From assembly GCA_016458225.1 (NCBI GenBank), contig JAEMGR010000001.1, positions 992,001-1,056,000 on the forward strand: a DNA stretch of 64,000 nucleotides. The letters run 5' to 3'. Source of the DNA: Myxococcaceae bacterium JPH2 (GTDB lineage Bacteria; Myxococcota; Myxococcia; Myxococcales; Myxococcaceae). Below the pieces are notes generated by a model that saw only the letters and a program-made list of their open reading frames with translations, did not search any database and was not told the DNA's origin. This document shows positions 34,272 to 46,951 of the stretch, piece by piece (the stretch's first letter is position 1; each line of letters starts with the position of its first letter). The position numbers and the translations under genes are program-made.

Positions 34272-35297
34272 ATGCTCGTCCTGCGTGACGTCCAGAAGAC
34301 CGACCTTGCTGGCCTGAAGCGGCTGGCCGCGGTGCTCAACACCGTGAACCTGCCGAACAATGAAGAGACGCTCGAAGCCATCATCGACAAGTCGGTGAAG
34401 AGCTTCGCGGGCAAGGTGAAGGACCCCTTCGGACGCGAGTACCTCTTCGTGCTCGAGGACGTGCGGAACAACCTCATCATCGGCACGTCGATGATCATCG
34501 CGCAGCACGGCACGTACGAGGCCCCGCACATCTATTACGAGGTGAGCGAGCGCGAGCACTACTCGGCGTCGCTCGAGCGCCACCTGCGGCACAAGGTGCT
34601 GTCCATCGCCTACAACTACGAGGGCCCCACGGAGATTGGCGGCCTGGTGGTGGACCCGCCCTATCGCGCCACGCCGGACAAGCCCGGCAAGCAGCTGTCC
34701 TTCGTGCGCTTCCTCTTCATCGCCATGCACCGGCGGCTGTTCCGCCCGCGCGTGCTCGCGGAGCTCTTGCCGCCGCTGTTGCCGGACGGGCGCAGCCTCC
34801 TGTGGGAGGCGTGCGGCAAGAAGTTCACCGGCCTGACGTACCTGGAGGCGGACCGCCTGAGCCGGCAGAACAAGGAGTTCATCAAGGAGCTGTTCCCCTC
34901 CTCGGACATCTACGCGTCGCTGTTCCCGGACCGCGTGCAGAAGGTGCTGGGCGAGGTGGGCCCGGCCACGCGCGGCGTGCAGCGCATGCTGGAGCGCATC
35001 GGCTTCCGCTACGTGGAGCGCATCGACCCGTTCGACGGCGGCCCCCACTTCGAGGCGAACACCGGCGACGTCTCGCTCGTGCGCCGCTACCGCACCGTGA
35101 AGCTCGCGGAGGAGGACTTCGAGATGGAGGGCGATGACGTGCTCGTCGCCATCGAGAACGACTCGGGCCGCAACCGCTTCCGCGCCGTGCGCTGCCAGGC
35201 GCGCCTGGACAACCAGGTCGTCTACCTCCCCGCTCGCGCCAAGGAAGTGCTCGACGTGGAGCCCGGCGCCCGGCTGTCCATCATTCCCTTCGAGTAG
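34272..35297 (+). CDS. astA: Arginine N-succinyltransferase
   Basis: 341 residues, the AstA length. The sequence follows the family throughout: [64 protein letters not shown] and [13 protein letters not shown]. It transfers succinate from succinyl-CoA to the alpha-amino group of arginine, the first step of the AST arginine-degradation pathway, and has an acetyltransferase-like fold. No other ast gene is adjacent. The ATG has only a weak GGGTG upstream. Its last 17 bases overlap the 3' end of the convergent transglutaminase-like gene. Confidence 0.93.
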
Positions 35298-36300
35298 CGC
35301 CCCGCACCACCCGGTGCGCCCCGCGCAGGAGCGCCAGCCAGCGCTCCCCCGCCTCCAGGCCGGGCCCCTCCGCGGACACCAACGCCACCGCCACGTGCGT
35401 GGCCGGCGACACGGCGTCCAGCGAGGTGGGGTCCAGGTCCAGCGTACCGCCTCCCGCGAGCGCCACCCGCACCCACGCGTGCGGGCGCGCCGGGCCGCCA
35501 TCCACCACCAGCAGGCCGTGCACCACGCCCACCCGCTTCCCCTGCCGCGCCGCCAGCGTCGCGAAGCGCAGCGCGTGCGCCAGGCACCCGCCCGCCTCCG
35601 CGTCCGCGCCCACGCGCCAGTCCGCCGCGGACGGCCCCTTGCTCGGAAACGCGGCGTGCACCCGCGCCGCCAGCGCCCGCGCGGGCCCGGCGGTCCACGC
35701 CGTCATGTCCGGCAGCCGCTCCGGCACCTCCAGCGCGGGCTCCAACCGCAGCGGCCCGCTCCCCTGCCCCTCCACCTGGAGTCCGGCGGAGAACAGCTCC
35801 GGCGGCGCGCGCAGCCGCTCTCCCGGCGCCGCCCGGGTGAAGCGCGAGTCCCCCACCTCCAGCGCCACCAGTCCCCCGTCCTCGCCGTAACGCGCGCGGA
35901 ACGCCGCCCCCAGCAGCGTGCCCTCCACCTGCGCCCCGCGCACCACCGTCACGCAGTGCGGCCCCTCCTGGCCCGACAGCTCCTCGCGCCCCGTCACGCA
36001 CCCCACCGGCGGCGGCCCGTGCCACAGCCACAGCGCTTGCGGCACCGCGTCCGTCCCCTCCACGCGCCCCGCGGCATCCACCCGCAGCGGCACCTCGCGA
36101 ACCCGCTCGCCCACCTGCCCCTCACGCGTGTGCAGGTGACGGCTCTCGTACGTGAAGCGCCCCGCCTCCCAGCGCAGGCTCACCGTGCCCACCGGAACCC
36201 CGCGCCACGCGAAGACATAGCGGTCCGAGCGCGCAGGAGGCTCCGTGTTTACAGGCTTATCTGGGAGAGCGAGGAGCAGAGCGACCAGGAGGGCGTTCAC
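35281..36300 (-). CDS. Transglutaminase-like protein
   Basis: 339 residues from a GTG. A hydrophobic start ([12 protein letters not shown]) may be a signal peptide. Residues about 20-200 are beta-rich. The transglutaminase-like core follows: [18 protein letters not shown] (candidate Cys), [18 protein letters not shown] (candidate His in HAW) and LDLDPTS (candidate Asp), a full Cys-His-Asp triad. Such bacterial proteins are mostly peptidases or amidases of the envelope. The start is 63 bp from the divergent chemoreceptor gene; its 3' end overlaps that of astA by 17 bp. Confidence 0.8.
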
Positions 36301-36363
36301 GGGCGGAGAGTGTGTGTCGATTTGAGGACCGGAGCCAGAAGGCGGGATAGCGTGGAGGGGCCC

Positions 36364-39300
36364 ATGGGAGCCAAACGGTACCTCTTCGCGTTCGGGGTCG
36401 CGGCGGGCCTCCCGTCCGCCCTCGTGCTGGGCCTGCTCCTGCGGGCCGTGACGGGAGAGCCGCACGGCGTGGAAGGGTGGGCCGTGCTGCTGCTGGGCGT
36501 GCCCGCGCTCTGGTTGGTGGGCGGCTACCTGGCGTGGTTCCGGTGGGCGGCCTTGCGGCGCCATGCCCGGCGCGCGGTGATGGGCCGGCTGGCGGAGGGA
36601 GACCTCGCCACGCCCATCCGGCAGGAGTTCGAGGGACAGGAGGACGTGCGCCGGCTGGTGCTGTCGCTGCGGCGCGCGCTGTCCCAGGTGCAGCGCGTGA
36701 CGGCGAACCTGCACCGCACCTGCAACGGCGTGGGCGAGCAGGCCACGCAGCTGCTCGAGGCGGCGCGGCGGCAAGGCAGCGCGGTGGAGCGCACGCTCAC
36801 CGCGGTGGGCAGCAGCGGGGACAGCCTCCAGACCGCGGTCAAGCGCGTGCAGCACCTGGAGACCTTCGCCCATGAGACGACGGGCGCGCTGCTGGAGATG
36901 ACCGAGCGGCTGCACCAGGTGGTGGCGGGCATGGCCACCGTCAACGACTTCGGCCAGAGCACCAGCTCGCTCATGGAGGCGATGAGCGAGCGGCTGGCGC
37001 ACATCGCCGCGTCCGGCGACGAGCTGGGCCGCTTCGCCAGCGAGGCCGAGGACTTCGTGGCCATGGTGGAGGGCGGCATCGACGCCGTGCGCCGCCGCGC
37101 CAACGAGACGAACCAGCTGGCCCACGCGGTGACGGCCACCGCCGAGCACGGTGAGCTGCTGGTGGGCGACAGCGTCCAGGGCATGTACCGGGTGGAAGAG
37201 ACGGTGCGCAAGGCGGCCGAGCTGATGGGCACGCTCGGCGCGCGCTCCACCGCCATCGGCCGCATCGTGGACGTCATCCAGGAGATCGCCGACCAGACGA
37301 ACCTGCTGGCCCTCAACGCCGCCATCATCGCCGCGCAGGCCGGCGAGCACGGCCGCCCCTTTGGCGTGGTGGCCAACGAGATTCGCAGCCTCGCCGAGCG
37401 CACCACGCGCTCCACGCGCGAGATTGGCGCCATGGTGACGGGCATCCGCGACGCGGTGCAGACCGCCGTGACGCTGGTGCAGGAGGGCCGCGAGCAGGCC
37501 ACCGCGGGCGTGCAGCTGGGAGACCGGGCCTCCGAGGCGCTGGCCGAGATTCGCACCATCACCCAGCGCACCTTCGCCGCCGTCGAGGCCACGGTGGCCG
37601 AGACGCAGCGATTGGAGGCGCAGGGCTCCACCGTGGTGGAGGCGAGCCGCCGCGTGGCGACGCGCGTGGAGGACGTCACGCGCATGGCCATCGAGCAGTC
37701 CGGCCATGCCCGCGAGCTGGTGCGCCAGACGCAAGAGATGGCGCGCGTGGGCCAGGGCGCCGCGCAGAAGGCCGAGGCCCAGGCCCACACTGGCCGCGAG
37801 CTGTCCGAGGCCGTCATGCGGCTGAGCGCGGCCATCGACGAGCTGCGCATGGCGCACGCGGTCCTCACCCGAGGTGACGCCGCCATCCGCGAGGAGGTCG
37901 CCCAGGTGCGTGAGGACGCGCGCCGGGTCATCCGCATCGGCGATGGGTTGGACCGCACGGTGGAGCAGCTGGGCCACGAGGCGCGCAGCCTGGAGGCCGA
38001 GGTGTTCCGCTTCCAGCTCCCCAGCCCGCGCGTGGGCGGCAGGCTGCGCGTGGCGCTGCACCAGACGGCCTCGCTGCGCAACCGGCAGGCGGTGGATCCG
38101 CTGTTCACGGTGGAGAACCAGATGGCGGAGCTCACCGCCTGCGTGTTCTCCGGGCTCTTGCGGCTGGAGGACGGCCTGCTCGTGCCGGACCTCGCCGAGC
38201 GCTGGGACGCGGACCCCTCCGCGCGCCGCTACCGCTTCTATCTGCGCCGCGGCGTCACCTTCCATGACGGCACGCTGCTCACCGCCCAGGACGTGAAGCG
38301 ACACCTGGAGCGCTTGATGGACCCCGCGGTGCGCTCGCCGGACCGCAGCCTCCTGGAGGACGTGGAGGGCGCGCTCGAGTACGGCCAGGGGCTGGCGCGC
38401 GAGGTGACAGGCATCGAGGTGCTGGACGAGGGCACGCTGGAGATTCGCCTGCGCGAGCCCAAGGCCTTCTTCCTCCAGCTCATGGCGCTGACCGCCACCA
38501 GCGTGGCCCGCGTGGACACCACGGGACGGCTGGTGGGCACCGGGCCCTTCCGCCTCATCGCGCTCGAGCCCGACCGCGTGGTGCTGGAGCGCAACCCCAC
38601 CTACTGGCGCGGCGGCTCGCCCATGCTGGACCGGCTGGAGTTCCAGCTCGTGGACTCGCGTCAGGCGGGCATCACGCGGCTGCTGACCGGCGACGTGGAC
38701 CTGGTGTCCTTCCTGCCCACCGAGCACACCGAGGAGCCTCGGCTGGAGGCCTTCCAGGTCGTGGCCAGCACCACGCCGTCCACCGCGTTCGTGGGCCTCA
38801 ACCTGCGCGAGCCGCCCTACGACGACGTGCGCGTGCGCCGCGCGCTCCGGGCCGGCATGGACGTCCCCGGCATGGTCGAGCAGTTCCACCCGGGCGCGCG
38901 CGTGGCCCGCACGCTCACCCCGCCGGAGCTGCTCGACACGGGCGACCTGGGCCCCGCGCCTGGGCCCGACGTGACGCTCGCGGAGCAGCTCTTGCGCGAC
39001 GCCGGGGTGCGCCGACTCCAGCTCACCATCCACCATCCCGCGGGCCGCGACACGTCCGCCGAGGACGCCGTGCTGTTCCGCCCGCTGGTGCAGGCGGGCC
39101 TGCTGGAGCTGCGGCACCTGGAGATGCCGTCGCTCGAGTACACGGCGCGGCTGCGCGAGGGGAAGATTCCGGCCTTCCGCACGCTGTGGCTGGCGGACTT
39201 CGCGGACCCGGACTCCTTCCTCCACTTCCTGCTCAACTCGGGCGCGCAGACGGTCTACCCGGTGGGCTACCGCAACCCGGAGCTGGACCGCATCACCGCC

Positions 39301-39510
39301 GAGGCGCGCGTCTCCATCGACCCGGAGCTGCGCGACCAGCTCTACCGCCGCGCCGAGCGCATCTTCCACGACGACTGCCCGCTCATCCCGCTGTTCCACG
39401 ACCGCATCCACGCGGCCGCCTCGCCCGCCATCCAGGGACTGCGCCTGCACCAGACGCCGCCCCAGGTCCGCTTCGAGGACCTGTGGGTGGACCCCAACGC
39501 GGGCTTCTGA
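36364..39510 (+). CDS. Chemoreceptor signalling domain fused to a family 5 solute-binding domain
   Basis: 1048 residues; GGAGGGG lies four bases before the ATG. Two membrane helices (about 7-27 and 38-58) with a ~10-residue loop leave no periplasmic sensor. A HAMP-like segment and long coiled coil lead to the MCP hairpin tip [12 protein letters not shown] near 309-320. The usual NAAIEAARAGE reads [12 protein letters not shown]322 and Q325 replace Glu and Arg at positions that match trimer-contact residues of E. coli Tsr. From residue ~559 to the end is a complete SBP_bac_5 oligopeptide/solute-binding domain ([48 protein letters not shown]). It lacks its own signal peptide, so by topology it should be cytoplasmic and act as an internal ligand sensor. 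Confidence 0.9.
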
Positions 39511-42381: not shown

Positions 42382-42576
42382 GGCGCGTCCTTCCTTCCGC
42401 TCGGACCAGACATAAGTCGCCCGGGCCCGCCACAAAAGGCTTTCGCGCACCGCGGAAACTGTTGGCTTCACAACACCCGCCCGCCCTCGGGCAGCGCATG
42501 ACGCACAAAGACAGACAAACGAGACCCAGACCGTGTCAATCGCTACCCATTCACGTATTTCAATAATTCACTGCCA

Positions 42577-42617
42577 TCTGTTGATTCTTAGAAACTCAAC
42601 AACATAGACTTTTCAAC
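42577..42617 (+). promoter_or_regulatory. AT-rich promoter and imperfect palindrome before the precursor gene
   Basis: The stretch 42530-42620 is much richer in A and T than the surrounding genes. It contains TGTTGA-N11-TCAACA (42579-42601), symmetric at 8 of 11 paired positions, overlapping a TTGATT -35-like hexamer (42581-42586). A -10-like TAGACT follows at 42605-42610. A repressor site covering the promoter is plausible. TCTGTTGATT is shared with the aceB promoter region. Confidence 0.45.
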
Positions 42618-42658
42618 GCTTCACCCGCCGTACTTCACCTACAACCGAGGAGTCAGCC

Positions 42659-42790
42659 ATGAAGAAGATTCTCGACCTTCAGAAGCTTCCGACCGAGGAG
42701 ACCACCGCAGTTGCCGCGAGCGGCAGCAGCGTGATGTGTATCGTGGTGAGTGGTGGCAACAGCGGCTGCAGCGTCGGCTGCGGCAGCTAG
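42659..42790 (+). CDS. Class III lanthipeptide precursor (LanA)
   Basis: A 43-residue ribosomal peptide precursor, start ATG behind GAGGAG. The leader (1-20) contains KKILDLQKL, matching the conserved (I/L)LxLQ recognition motif of class III leaders, then acidic TEETTAVAA. The core (21-43) has seven serines and three cysteines and no threonine. It contains two S-x2-S-x2-C motifs, SGSSVMC (S21, S24, C27) and SGCSVGC (S35, S38, C41), the arrangement that gives labionin rings in class III products; S31 and C37 could form one further ring. Synthetase genes follow directly. Third codon positions are AT-richer than in neighbouring genes. Cleavage site is not certain; Pro11 in the leader would suit a prolyl oligopeptidase. 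Confidence 0.88.
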   Translation: MKKILDLQKLPTEETTAVAASGSSVMCIVVSGGNSGCSVGCGS

Positions 42791-42843
42791 TCATTGCCCG
42801 TGTGCCCCTGGCGACCCCATGGACACACGCGTGATGTGAAGTG

Positions 42844-42896
42844 CACGGCCACCCCTTCCGGTCTGTTCAAGCTTTCCGCCTGAACGGGTGGCCGTG
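42844..42896 (+). terminator. Strong hairpin between precursor and synthetase genes
   Basis: Perfect 11-bp arms CACGGCCACCC (42844-42854) and GGGTGGCCGTG (42886-42896) enclose an inner 5-bp stem GTTCA/TGAAC, with a 10-nt bulge on one side. GTTTCT follows. This is 53 bp after the precursor stop. It is placed to act as a partial terminator or processing/stability element that yields more precursor mRNA than synthetase mRNA. It would also bury the GTG at 42888, supporting the downstream start of the synthetase. Confidence 0.65.
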
Positions 42897-42935
42897 GTTT
42901 CTCAGACAAGCCCCCACCCGGAGCCGGAGCGCCTC

Positions 42936-44450
42936 ATGGAGGAGTTCTCGTTCTATACGCTGTGCGACCCCGAATACTTCGAGACGCTGAGCCGCTTTCC
43001 GGCCACCTCGGGCTACGCGGAGTTGCTGAAGTCCCTGCTCCCGCCGGACTGGAGCGTCAACCGCTTCGACATCTTCCTCCAGGCGGGCTCCGAGCGAACC
43101 ATCCTGAAGCCACAAGGCTTCAAGATTCACCTGTCCGCGCCCGTGGCGGAAGCGGCGACGCTGCTCCAACGGGTGGCGCCCCTGTGCGCGCGCGCCGAGG
43201 TGATGTTCAAGATCATCGCCGCGCCCATGCTGCTGCGCTTCCTCAATTCCAAGCGCTACTCGCGCAACGGCTCCGGCAAGTTCATCACCCTGTACCCGAA
43301 GGATGAGCCCACCTTCCTCGCGCTCATCGAGCAGCTCTATCAGGCGACCCGAGACCTCACGGGCCCTTACATCCTGTCGGACAAGCGCTATCGGGACAGC
43401 AAGGTGGTCTTCTACCGCTACGGCGGTTTTCAGCGCATGTATGACCTGCGCGTGGATGGCATGCGCAACCTCATGGTTCGCAAGCCGGACGGCACCTATG
43501 TCCAGGACGACCGTCTGCCTTACTTCCAGCTCCCAGACTGGGTGAAGGATCCGCTGCCGGACCCCGAGCCGGAAGGGGATGACGACTCCGGCCTGCTCCA
43601 CGGGCGCTACGAGGTCCGAGAGGCGCTCGCCTTCACCAACACCGGAGGGGTGTACAAGGCAGTGGACCGGACCACCGGGGCCACCGTGGTCATCAAGGAG
43701 GCCCGGCCCTACACCGAAGCGTGGATGGGCGCCGAGCTGTCCGTGGACGCCACCGTCGCGCTCCGCCACGAGCACGACATCCTCCAGCGCCTGGACGGAC
43801 TGCCTTTCGTCCCTCGCGCCCTCGACATGTTCCAGGAGTGGGAGCACACGTTCCTGGTCATCTCGCACGTGGGCGGAACGCCGCTCGCCACGCTGCGCGC
43901 CAACGATGACTTCATCGTCATGACGGACATGGACGACCCCGAGCGCGTCCTCCGCTTCTGCGTCACGTGGCGCACCCTCGCGCTCCAACTCCTCGACGCG
44001 GTGGACGCCATCCACGCGCGCGGCATCCTCGTGGGCGACATCTCCCCGGGCAACGTCCTGCTCGACCGGGACACGGGCGCGCTGGGCCTCATCGACTTCG
44101 AGGCCGCGCTCGCCCAGGGCGGCACGTCCCCCTTCTCCGCGCAGTGGTTCAACCCCGGGTTCCGCAATCCCTCGCGGCGACAGGCCCATGCGCTGGAGTC
44201 GTCCGACGACTTCTACGCGTGCGGAATGCTCCTCTACAACCTGGTCTGCCCCATCCAGAACCTCTTCGAGTTGGACAAGGCCCAGCCCGTCTTCCGCGTG
44301 TTGGACCACTTCATCGAAGGCGGCCTGCCCTCGCCCATCAAGGACATCATCCAGTCCCTGCTGGAGGGCCACCCGGACACGGCACGCGCCCAGGCCCGAG
44401 CGTGGGATCCCCTCGGAGCCGGAGCGGCCAGTCCTCGTCCTCTCGGCTGA
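42936..44450 (+). CDS. Class III lanthipeptide synthetase, lyase and kinase domains (N-terminal half of LanKC)
   Basis: 504 residues. Residues 1-215 match the LanKC lyase region (FKIHLSAPV, FITLYPKDE, GPYILSDKRYRDSKVVFYRYGGF). The kinase (about 220-480) has Lys254 in VVIKEARP, the loop GDISPGNVLL with D368 and N373, and D387 in LIDFEAA. Kinase phosphorylates Ser/Thr of the precursor, lyase removes phosphate to give dehydro residues. A normal LanKC continues into a cyclase domain; this protein stops after the kinase C-lobe and a short Ala/Pro tail. ATG 42936 has GGAG upstream; the GTG at 42888 lies in the hairpin. The cyclase is the next gene, 30 bp on. Confidence 0.9.
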   Translation: MEEFSFYTLCDPEYFETLSRFPATSGYAELLKSLLPPDWSVNRFDIFLQAGSERTILKPQGFKIHLSAPVAEAATLLQRVAPLCARAEVMFKIIAAPMLLRFLNSKRYSRNGSGKFITLYPKDEPTFLALIEQLYQATRDLTGPYILSDKRYRDSKVVFYRYGGFQRMYDLRVDGMRNLMVRKPDGTYVQDDRLPYFQLPDWVKDPLPDPEPEGDDDSGLLHGRYEVREALAFTNTGGVYKAVDRTTGATVVIKEARPYTEAWMGAELSVDATVALRHEHDILQRLDGLPFVPRALDMFQEWEHTFLVISHVGGTPLATLRANDDFIVMTDMDDPERVLRFCVTWRTLALQLLDAVDAIHARGILVGDISPGNVLLDRDTGALGLIDFEAALAQGGTSPFSAQWFNPGFRNPSRRQAHALESSDDFYACGMLLYNLVCPIQNLFELDKAQPVFRVLDHFIEGGLPSPIKDIIQSLLEGHPDTARAQARAWDPLGAGAASPRPLG

Positions 44451-44480
44451 GTCCCCTCGCGAACGAACCAGGACCTTCCC

Positions 44481-45650
44481 ATGTCGCACGCTCCTTTCGC
44501 CTCCGCCCCGGCCCTGCCAGAGGCGGACTCGTTCCAGGAAACGCTCCGCGAGCTGGCCCGGCACATGGTCGGCACCATGGACCCGAGCCGCGCGGACCGC
44601 CTCTTCCCTCCGGACGCCATGGCGTTCCAGACGAACGCGCTGAACCTGGCCTATGGCGCCTGCGGGCCCGCGCTCTTCCTCCACGACGTGCTGGGAGAGC
44701 TTCCCCAGGTCGCGAGGGAGTGGCTCCTCGCGCAGCCCGTGGAGCCCTCCGCGTATCCTCCGGGCCTCTACTCCGGCATCGCGGGAGTGGCCTGGACCTT
44801 CGCGGAGCTGGGCTTGCTCGAGCACGCCCAGGCGCTCTTCGAGAAGGTCTCCACCTCACCGCTCGCCTTTCGCGCCGTGGACATCTTCGATGGCGTCGCG
44901 GGCTGGGGGCTGACGGCGCTCGCCTTCCACCAGCGAACCCGGGATGACCGGTACCTCGCGCTCGCGGGCCGCGCCGCGGACCACCTGCTCGCCAACGCCC
45001 AGTCCCACGAGCACGGCCTCTGGTGGCGCAACGAAGGGGAGTCCGTGGCGCGGCTCGGCTTCGCGCTCGGCGGCAGCGGCGCGGCGCTGTTCCTGCTCTA
45101 CCTCGGGCGCGCCACCGGCGAGGCGCGCTACCTCGCCGCGGCCCGCGGCGCGCTGGACTTCGAGATCGCCCACGCGCAAGAGCGAGGGGCCGCGCTCGTG
45201 TGGGGTGTCACCGCGGGCGCCACCGGCCACCGCCCCTACTGGCTGCGCGGCGGCGCGGGCGTGGCGTCCACCCTCATCCGCTTCTTCGCCGTCCTCCAGG
45301 ACGAGCGCTACCTCCAGGTGGCCCGCCGGGCGGCGCGCGGCTGCGGCGTGTTCTTCTCCGCGGCGCCCCACCTCTTCGAGGGGCTGACCGCCATGGGCGA
45401 GACGCTCCTGGACATGTACCAGGTGACGGGCGAGCCGCAGTACCTGGAGCTGGCCCGACAGAAGGCCCGGCAGACGCTGCTGTTCCGCATCGAGCGCCCC
45501 ACGGGACTCGCCTTCCCGGGGCGCTACCTGCTGCGCGTCAGCCACGACTACGGCATGGGCGGCGCGGGAATCGGGATGTTCCTCCACCGCCTTCTGAAGA
45601 ACTCACCCCGGCGCTTCCACGACCTGCCCGGGCTCACACCGCCGCACTGA
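44481..45650 (+). CDS. Stand-alone LanC-like cyclase lacking zinc ligands (C-terminal half of LanKC)
   Basis: 389 residues. The alpha-toroid pattern of LanC domains is clear: LAYGACGPALFLHD, PPGLYSGIAGVAWTFAELGL, IFDGVAGWGLTAL, FALGGSGAALFLLYLG and HDYGMGGAGIGMFLHRLL. The zinc ligands are gone: the WC(H/Y)G site reads WLRG (L255, R256) and the CHG site reads LFEG (F299, E300). Absence of zinc ligands is typical of class III cyclase domains and rules out class I, II and IV. It begins at the position where the linker between kinase and cyclase lies in full LanKC enzymes. AGGA precedes the ATG. It probably pairs with the upstream protein to form rings in the precursor. Confidence 0.87.
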   Translation: MSHAPFASAPALPEADSFQETLRELARHMVGTMDPSRADRLFPPDAMAFQTNALNLAYGACGPALFLHDVLGELPQVAREWLLAQPVEPSAYPPGLYSGIAGVAWTFAELGLLEHAQALFEKVSTSPLAFRAVDIFDGVAGWGLTALAFHQRTRDDRYLALAGRAADHLLANAQSHEHGLWWRNEGESVARLGFALGGSGAALFLLYLGRATGEARYLAAARGALDFEIAHAQERGAALVWGVTAGATGHRPYWLRGGAGVASTLIRFFAVLQDERYLQVARRAARGCGVFFSAAPHLFEGLTAMGETLLDMYQVTGEPQYLELARQKARQTLLFRIERPTGLAFPGRYLLRVSHDYGMGGAGIGMFLHRLLKNSPRRFHDLPGLTPPH

Positions 45651-45659
45651 GGCGGCGTG

Positions 45660-46715
45660 TCACTCACCGGGCGGAGCGAGCACCGTGCCGCCGTACTGGC
45701 TGGCCGCCAGCGTGCCGCAGGCCGCGCCAATCTCCTTGCCGCCCGAGTACCGCCGCGCGATGGGCGCCTTGAGAATCTGGAGGTGGTCGCGAAACGCGCT
45801 CAGCTCCTCGGCCGTGGGCGGCAGGTACTTCCCCGTGGGGTCCGTCACGTCGATGAGGTCCACCTTGATGGGGATGCCCTCGAAGGCCACCTTCAGCGCC
45901 TCGGCGTCCTCGCGCCCCAGGTTGAAGCCCTGGATGGCCACGTAGGCAATCATCGCCCGCTCGCGCCGCGCCTCGCTGTACTCGCGGATGGCCTCGATGA
46001 GCTCCGGCAACGGGTGCGTCTTCTCGATGGGCAGCACCTGCGCGCGCTTCTCCGCGATGGCGCTCGTCACCGAGAAGGCCAGCCGGTACGGGTGCCCCTC
46101 GCGCGTGTAGCGCCGGATGGCCGGCACATGCCCCGCGGTGGAGAAGGTGATGGACTGCCCGGAGATGGAGAAGCCCGCCGGGTTGGACAGGATCTGCGCC
46201 GCCCGGAGCGTCTCCTTGTAGTTGAGCAGCGGCTCGCCCATCCCCATGAACACGACGCCGCGCACGGGCCGGTCCGCCTCGGCGCGCACCTGGAGCACCT
46301 GGTCCAGAATCTCCCAGGTCTGGAGGTTGCGCTTGAAGCCCAGCTTCCCCGTCATGCAGAAGTCGCACGCCAGCGCACAGCCCACCTGGCTGGAGACGCA
46401 GACGACGTACTTCTCGTCGAAGATGGGGATGCGCACCGCTTCAATCTGTCCGCCCAGCGGCGACTCGAAGAGGTACTTCACGAAGCCGTCGTCCGCCTTG
46501 CGCCGCTCCACCACCCGGAGGCTCGGCATCTCGGCGTGCGCGCGCAGGTGGTCCGCGACGCGGCGCGGCACCTGGGGCGCCCGGCAGATGGCCTCCACCG
46601 AGGGCAGGCCATGGGCGAACACCGCCGCGAACACCTTGCGGACGGCCACCGGCGTGGGGGCGAGCGGAGCCAGCGCCTCGTGCAGCTCCGGCAGGGACAA
46701 TTGCTTCAGGTTCAA
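45660..46715 (-). CDS. rlmN: Dual-specificity RNA methyltransferase RlmN family
   Basis: 351 residues. The radical SAM motif CALACDFCMTG has Cys113, Cys117 and Cys120, and the methyl-carrying cysteine lies near the C-terminus in GAACGTLA. RlmN methylates C2 of A2503 in 23S rRNA and of A37 in some tRNAs. The start is a TTG whose last bases form TTGA with the anti-sigma stop, a 4-base overlap, so translation is probably coupled; no ATG exists nearby in frame without passing through the upstream gene. This places RlmN in an ECF sigma/anti-sigma operon, an unusual context. Convergent with the lanthipeptide cyclase gene (9-bp gap). Confidence 0.92.
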   Translation of the reverse strand: MNLKQLSLPELHEALAPLAPTPVAVRKVFAAVFAHGLPSVEAICRAPQVPRRVADHLRAHAEMPSLRVVERRKADDGFVKYLFESPLGGQIEAVRIPIFDEKYVVCVSSQVGCALACDFCMTGKLGFKRNLQTWEILDQVLQVRAEADRPVRGVVFMGMGEPLLNYKETLRAAQILSNPAGFSISGQSITFSTAGHVPAIRRYTREGHPYRLAFSVTSAIAEKRAQVLPIEKTHPLPELIEAIREYSEARRERAMIAYVAIQGFNLGREDAEALKVAFEGIPIKVDLIDVTDPTGKYLPPTAEELSAFRDHLQILKAPIARRYSGGKEIGAACGTLAASQYGGTVLAPPGE

Positions 46716-46951
46716 GACGCGGGCTTGATCTTCGACCGCAGGAACTCGGTCAGCTTGGCCGAGACTTCCTGGGGAATCCGCTGAGCCAACGCCCGTTTGC
46801 ACATCCCGGACGTGGCCCGGTAGGTGCTCAGGAACTCCTCGCACGGCCTGCAGCCCGCGAAGTGCTCCTTCAAATGGCGCGCTTCCTCCGGCGTCATCTC
46901 GCCGTCGAGGTACTCCAGCAGGAGGTTGATGGAATCTTTACACGTATACAT
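46712..46951 (-). CDS. Zinc-finger anti-sigma factor
   Basis: 79 residues. The zinc-binding anti-sigma motif reads HLKEHFAGCRPCEEF, i.e. His-x3-His and Cys-x2-Cys spaced as in ZAS/zf-HC2 proteins. The rest is helical, with no membrane segment, so it would be a soluble anti-sigma factor that holds the sigma factor encoded 81 bp upstream. A zinc finger of this type can respond to redox change. Its TGA overlaps the rlmN TTG. Confidence 0.87.
   Translation of the reverse strand: MYTCKDSINLLLEYLDGEMTPEEARHLKEHFAGCRPCEEFLSTYRATSGMCKRALAQRIPQEVSAKLTEFLRSKIKPAS

Follow-up and report, generated by a model that had tools for sequence, protein, structure and literature searches.

A compact class III lanthipeptide cassette in a myxobacterium whose LanKC synthetase appears to be encoded as two proteins

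A 64,000-nucleotide stretch of the Myxococcaceae bacterium JPH2 genome (contig JAEMGR010000001.1, 992,001–1,056,000; hereafter the window) contains, at positions 42659–45650, what is very probably a compact class III lanthipeptide cassette in which two separate proteins make up the LanKC synthetase and cooperate in trans like the domains of the fused enzyme. Its three genes encode a precursor of 43 aa, a lyase-kinase of 504 aa and a LanC-like protein of 389 aa, in agreement with an earlier note made from the sequence alone. At the level of sequence, the analysis establishes the order and domain content of the genes, the conservation of the split and purifying selection on both halves; the mode of action proposed below draws on the homologous synthetase ThurKC.

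The cassette and its genes

The features of the cassette are collected in Table 1. In the window, 30 nt separate lanK from the LanC-like gene, and an AGGA lies 6 nt 5′ of the ATG at 44481. A longer lanK product of 520 aa starting at GTG 42888 is possible on paper and was rejected, since homologues all start at a conserved [M/L]EE[F/I] and the spacer hairpin covers this GTG. Only one RamC_N and one LANC_like match occur in the whole genome, which leaves the pair without an alternative partner in this strain.

Table 1. Features of the cassette, in window coordinates.
Feature	Position	Strand	Basis
AT-rich cassette leader, presumed promoter	42448..42658	+	~51% GC vs 71–72% in flanks; absent at same-genus empty site
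lanA, 43-aa precursor	42659..42790	+	class III precursor model, conserved precursors elsewhere, AGGAG ribosome-binding site
lanA–lanK spacer hairpin	42844..42896	+	18-nt arms, 89% complementary
lanK, lyase-kinase of 504 aa (RamC_N lyase and Ser/Thr kinase)	42936..44450, ATG start	+	profiles, motifs
lanC-like, 389-aa class III cyclase without zinc ligands, as a separate subunit	44481..45650	+	profiles, motifs

An AT-rich stretch of 200 nt (50–61% GC) precedes lanA in all eight related loci, i.e. seven split loci and one fused homologue, L047; no sigma-70 consensus was found in the leader of the window (42448..42658). The description of a minimal cassette of only three genes holds, as neither a transporter nor a protease is conserved among the loci. 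A tailoring role was considered and rejected for the radical SAM protein encoded downstream (45663–46844): this is RlmN, which occupies the same place in relatives that have no cassette. Elsewhere in the window (35134–39507, + strand), a 1458-aa ORF combines a chemoreceptor signalling domain (MCPsignal) with a peptide-binding domain (SBP_bac_5) placed C-terminal to it, an unusual domain order for a chemoreceptor fusion.

Hairpins were also observed in the lanA–lanK spacers of L037, L038 and L040–L043, as in the window, despite their differing sequences. Spacers in five other split loci are strongly structured (z −3.2 to −5.0), and so is that of the sixth, L043, against mononucleotide shuffles (z −4.0); the window spacer is less structured (z −1.6) and that of the fused L047 is not structured (z −0.1). 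It is possible that the hairpin is an attenuator or a stabiliser of lanA mRNA. It may let the precursor be made in excess of the enzyme.

Class III identity of the encoded proteins

Assignment to class III, also proposed in the earlier note, is borne out by the RamC_N lyase, the kinase, the zinc-free cyclase and the class III-type precursor. The two enzymes correspond to the first and second halves of the NCBIfam LanKC model NF038151 (833 positions), the lyase-kinase matching it over 3–436 (E 1.5e-130) and the LanC-like protein over 479–833 (E 1.2e-76), which places the split at the kinase–cyclase linker, as stated in the earlier note; neither protein reaches the whole-protein cut-off of the model, as expected of halves. 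In LanK, the lyase domain (Pfam PF25816, RamC_N; E 9.4e-57) has conserved KIH, SGKF and FYRYG motifs, and the kinase domain (PF00069; E 6.4e-19) conserves VVIK, GDISPGN and IDFE. The cyclase matches PF05147 (LANC_like; E 4.3e-24) and scores 258.7 bits with the class III model versus 199 bits with the class IV model. As first noticed from its motifs, it carries WLRG and FEG at the zinc positions, and this absence of zinc ligands separates it from the zinc-binding cyclase of class IV (LanL). Lyase and kinase form one RamC-type chain, which separates the system from class V, where a HopA1-like lyase stands apart from the kinase. The three domains are found on two ORFs in seven loci and not in one polypeptide: there is no LanKC protein here, and the system is a two-protein version of class III.

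In sequence searches of the PDB, ThurKC (8sao, E 6.8e-56) is the nearest match of the lyase-kinase, while the cyclase comes closest to similar synthetases, among them CuvL (8car). AlphaFold models of the cyclase are weak (pLDDT 60 from a single sequence, 63 from three sequences) and only agree with these assignments; the best fold matches of the low-confidence single-sequence model (pLDDT 60) are CuvL and LanCL2, which are LanC-type cyclases.

The precursor has the LQ-type helical leader and the Ser/Cys core with SxxSx(2–5)C by which such precursors are recognised; its leader begins MKKILDLQKL and its core contains SxxSxxC (S21, S24, C27) followed by SxxC (S38, C41). Against the class III precursor model NF038154 it scores 21.9 bits, just under the cut-off of 22. 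A precursor adjoins the enzyme genes in every related locus, in the same position in the seven others, and all share the MKK...L.LQ.L leader and invariant core Cys residues. Two types can be distinguished, SxSSxxC...SGCSVGC in five loci and an SxSSxxCSxxC-like core in L040 and L041, that of L047 being one residue longer. SxxSx(2–5)C has been used as a labionin motif (PMC11251773), and related motifs can yield plain lanthionine too (PMC7268733); the SxxSxxC of lanA fits the former, and its rings could possibly be lanthionine or labionin.

Occurrence of the split in related genomes

The check for split homologues in related myxobacteria that the earlier note had called for revealed six further split loci. 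A RamC_N profile search of 96 Myxococcaceae genomes gave 23 places above the cut-off: 15 lie in one long frame (884–989 aa), including L047 in genome G099, seven lie in frames of 516–545 aa followed by a LanC-like gene, and one (G018) is a 555-aa lyase-kinase open frame in a genome with no LanC-like gene. The seven split loci comprise the window, five from Corallococcus and one from another genus, i.e. three genera and six genomes, three of which are single-contig assemblies; besides the window they are C. llansteffanensis L037/L045, Corallococcus sp. AS-1-6 L038/L046, G080 L041 and L042, G079 L043 and G099 L040. Identity to the window is 62–72% for lanK and 66–73% for lanC. No split LanK–LanC pair was recognised outside Myxococcota among the plasmid matches examined, which do not amount to a systematic survey.

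Two kinds of junction occur. Five loci have a gap of about 24–65 nt between stop and start, depending on the start chosen, and in L040 and L041 the genes overlap by 22 nt, with AGGAGGCGGAG 5′ of an internal ATG. That each enzyme gene has its own start and ribosome-binding site, as was claimed for the window, recurs across the split loci. In the compared pairs, dN/dS is low for both lanK (0.14–0.43) and lanC (0.17–0.38), which indicates purifying selection on both.

These data bear on the most mundane explanation of the split, that a sequencing or assembly frameshift, or a recent inactivating mutation, has broken a normal fused LanKC gene. The existence of a close fused homologue could be read in its favour, and the earlier note had named such a gene as something that would refute the split; L047 (880 aa, 69–70% identical) is literally such a gene. 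It does not, however, refute a real split, because seven split loci are present in three genera. The recurrence in six genomes, with differing spacings and with separate starts and ribosome-binding sites, and the low dN/dS on both sides make error or recent damage extremely unlikely; frameshift was rejected as a general explanation by the seven conserved splits, and the variety of junctions together with low dN/dS in both halves excludes it.

Two lyase-kinases were observed on their own. LanC-like genes are absent near the lyase-kinase of G018 (L044:8458–10122) and throughout that genome, and the Salipiger sp. CCB-MM3 plasmid NZ_CP014600.1 (L060:4836–6407) encodes a RamC-type lyase-kinase, annotated as 524 aa, with no LanC-like gene nearby. 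It is possible that both are dehydratases without a cyclase.

Fission, fusion and the fused homologue L047

In a tree of concatenated proteins the eight related loci group together with full support, far from other fused LanKCs, and L047 is nested among the split loci. The AU test rejects topologies that place L047 basal to the split loci as a whole, at p of 0.015 or less (0.0147, 0.0073 and lower); several other topologies are not rejected. One simple fission is thereby rejected, and the gene must have undergone fission or fusion two or more times: either one split was followed by re-fusion in L047, or two or more splits occurred, the root being uncertain with so distant an outgroup. L047 (G099:C1:5350689–5353502, minus strand) has an out-of-frame ATG, within TCATGG, where L040 and L041 begin lanC. 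This ATG hints at re-fusion, and the evidence is weak because codons ending in A make up about 5% of the gene. Two genomes were seen to hold two cassettes of the clade each, G099 (split L040 and fused L047) and G080 (L041 and L042).

Such a history raises the question of whether the split, although real, means anything for function. We give somewhat less than even weight to the view that a modular enzyme has undergone neutral fission and fusion between interchangeable states, a view which is compatible with a two-protein mechanism. The coexistence of split and fused cassettes in G099, the requirement for at least two events and the ATG retained by L047 all suit it. Against this, most members have kept the split while diverging to 62–72% identity; separate chains could be advantageous for expression or stoichiometry.

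Proposed mechanism and parallels with ThurKC

In the two-protein synthetase, the ILDLQKL leader helix would dock on the lyase-kinase, and the cyclase subunit would associate non-covalently and be needed for the kinase to work, as in ThurKC. The kinase would then phosphorylate core Ser residues, the RamC-type lyase would form dehydroalanine by eliminating the phosphate, and Cys thiols would be added by the zinc-free cyclase to form lanthionine or, at SxxSxxC, possibly labionin. Removal of the leader and export would fall to proteins encoded elsewhere.

The model for this scheme comes from Hernandez Garcia and Nair, who showed that the excised ThurKC lyase-kinase is inactive alone and that the cyclase domain, supplied as a separate chain, restores dehydration in vitro; no stable complex of the separated halves was seen, and most mutations in the cyclase domain damage dehydration (PMC10604976). 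The earlier note had expected the split to permit dehydration and ring formation to be tested separately, which is doubtful given the inactivity of the ThurKC lyase-kinase without its cyclase (PMC10604976): by analogy, the natural pair should need both proteins even for dehydration, a step that probably cannot be tested in the absence of the cyclase. The existence of cyclase-less lyase-kinases in G018 and Salipiger makes dehydration without a partner conceivable.

The equivalent of NisC His212 is missing from the cyclase and is kept by all 12 aligned fused Myxococcaceae LanKCs; its loss was dropped as a unique oddity because it is also absent in ThurKC and in several Gram-positive and other LanKCs. 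With the zinc ligands gone as well, and with the effect of ThurKC cyclase mutations on dehydration (PMC10604976), it could be argued that the LanC-like protein makes no rings and only activates or scaffolds dehydration, Cys addition being spontaneous or absent. This we regard as unlikely: the pocket is strongly conserved in all eight loci (PYWL, PHLFEGL), the core Cys residues are invariant, and ring formation by a class III cyclase that has no zinc is known (PMC10604976). Nor are the missing zinc ligands and histidine decisive against the two-protein model, since ThurKC makes labionin without the His212 equivalent. At the positions of the FEG motif ThurKC has Phe770–Asp771, both needed for ring formation (PMC10604976); the window cyclase has Phe–Glu there (Phe299 and Glu300).

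Portability of the cassette

Apart from the orthologous pair L038/L042, the loci have no recognisable similarity beyond the cassette, i.e. the AT-rich leader, ribosome-binding site, lanA, spacer, lanK and lanC. An empty site is present in the same-genus genome G001: its flanks match the window at 94% as far as 42447 and at 96% from 45651 onwards, with 46 nt in place of the 3203 nt (3.2 kb) between. The cassette is also absent from this site in G031 and G099, and its gain in the lineage of the window is the simplest reading of these three sites. No mobile-element ends or target duplication were recognised at the empty site. On sequence grounds we count portability as shown.

A wider proposal, tentative and on balance rather doubtful, is that of a mobile minimal cassette with an obligate two-subunit synthetase, in which the cyclase is both trans-activator of dehydration and ring-former and the gene pair has been repeatedly split and re-fused; if it holds, natural split and fused enzymes could be compared directly.

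Comparison with known systems

No natural LanKC split was found in the open-access literature searched; an earlier report, for instance in papers on myxococin, boletupeptin or the melittapeptins, is possible. A large survey assigns class III only if LanC and kinase domains share one protein (PMC7268733), so split cassettes would be set aside there as unclassified. Class III enzymes have been described as single chains, and the separated ThurKC halves cooperate although no stable complex was seen (PMC10604976); the natural pair and its fused close relative offer a ready system in which to ask why, and by what means the kinase is controlled by the cyclase. A two-protein synthetase is nevertheless a modest step within class III, if a useful natural test case, because classes I and V already have dehydratase and cyclase on separate proteins and the halves of ThurKC function together in vitro.

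ThurKC of Bacillus thuringiensis (andalusicin; PDB 8sao, 8sap, 8sam) has the same order of lyase, kinase and zinc-free cyclase, an LELQL-like leader motif and F–D in place of the Cys–His zinc ligands (F–E here), and its artificially separated halves work in trans (PMC10604976). The natural protein is, however, one chain, its cluster adds a methyltransferase and several precursors, and the His212 position is Asp, versus Leu, Tyr or Arg in loci of the window type. Other fused Myxococcaceae LanKCs (e.g. L049 and L051) have the same domains in a single chain and, except for L047, share at most ~40% lyase-kinase identity and keep an AHG-type histidine; L047, itself a single chain, shares the FEG motif, and its precursor is related. 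Boletupeptin from Melittangium boletus is cited as a myxobacterial class III peptide in a passage of PMC12328550.

The SapB/AmfS systems of Streptomyces likewise combine a RamC_N lyase, kinase and zinc-free cyclase with a short precursor with a Ser/Cys core, but with a fused synthetase and adjoining ABC transporter genes (e.g. L062). In class V, separate kinase and lyase proteins (LanK and LanY; CaoK–CaoY of cacaoidin) assemble into the dehydratase (PMC9486802), whereas here these two are fused and only the LanC-like cyclase is separate. Dehydratase and cyclase are also separate proteins in class I (LanB and LanC), which differs in its tRNA-dependent glutamylation, zinc LanC and unrelated dehydratase.
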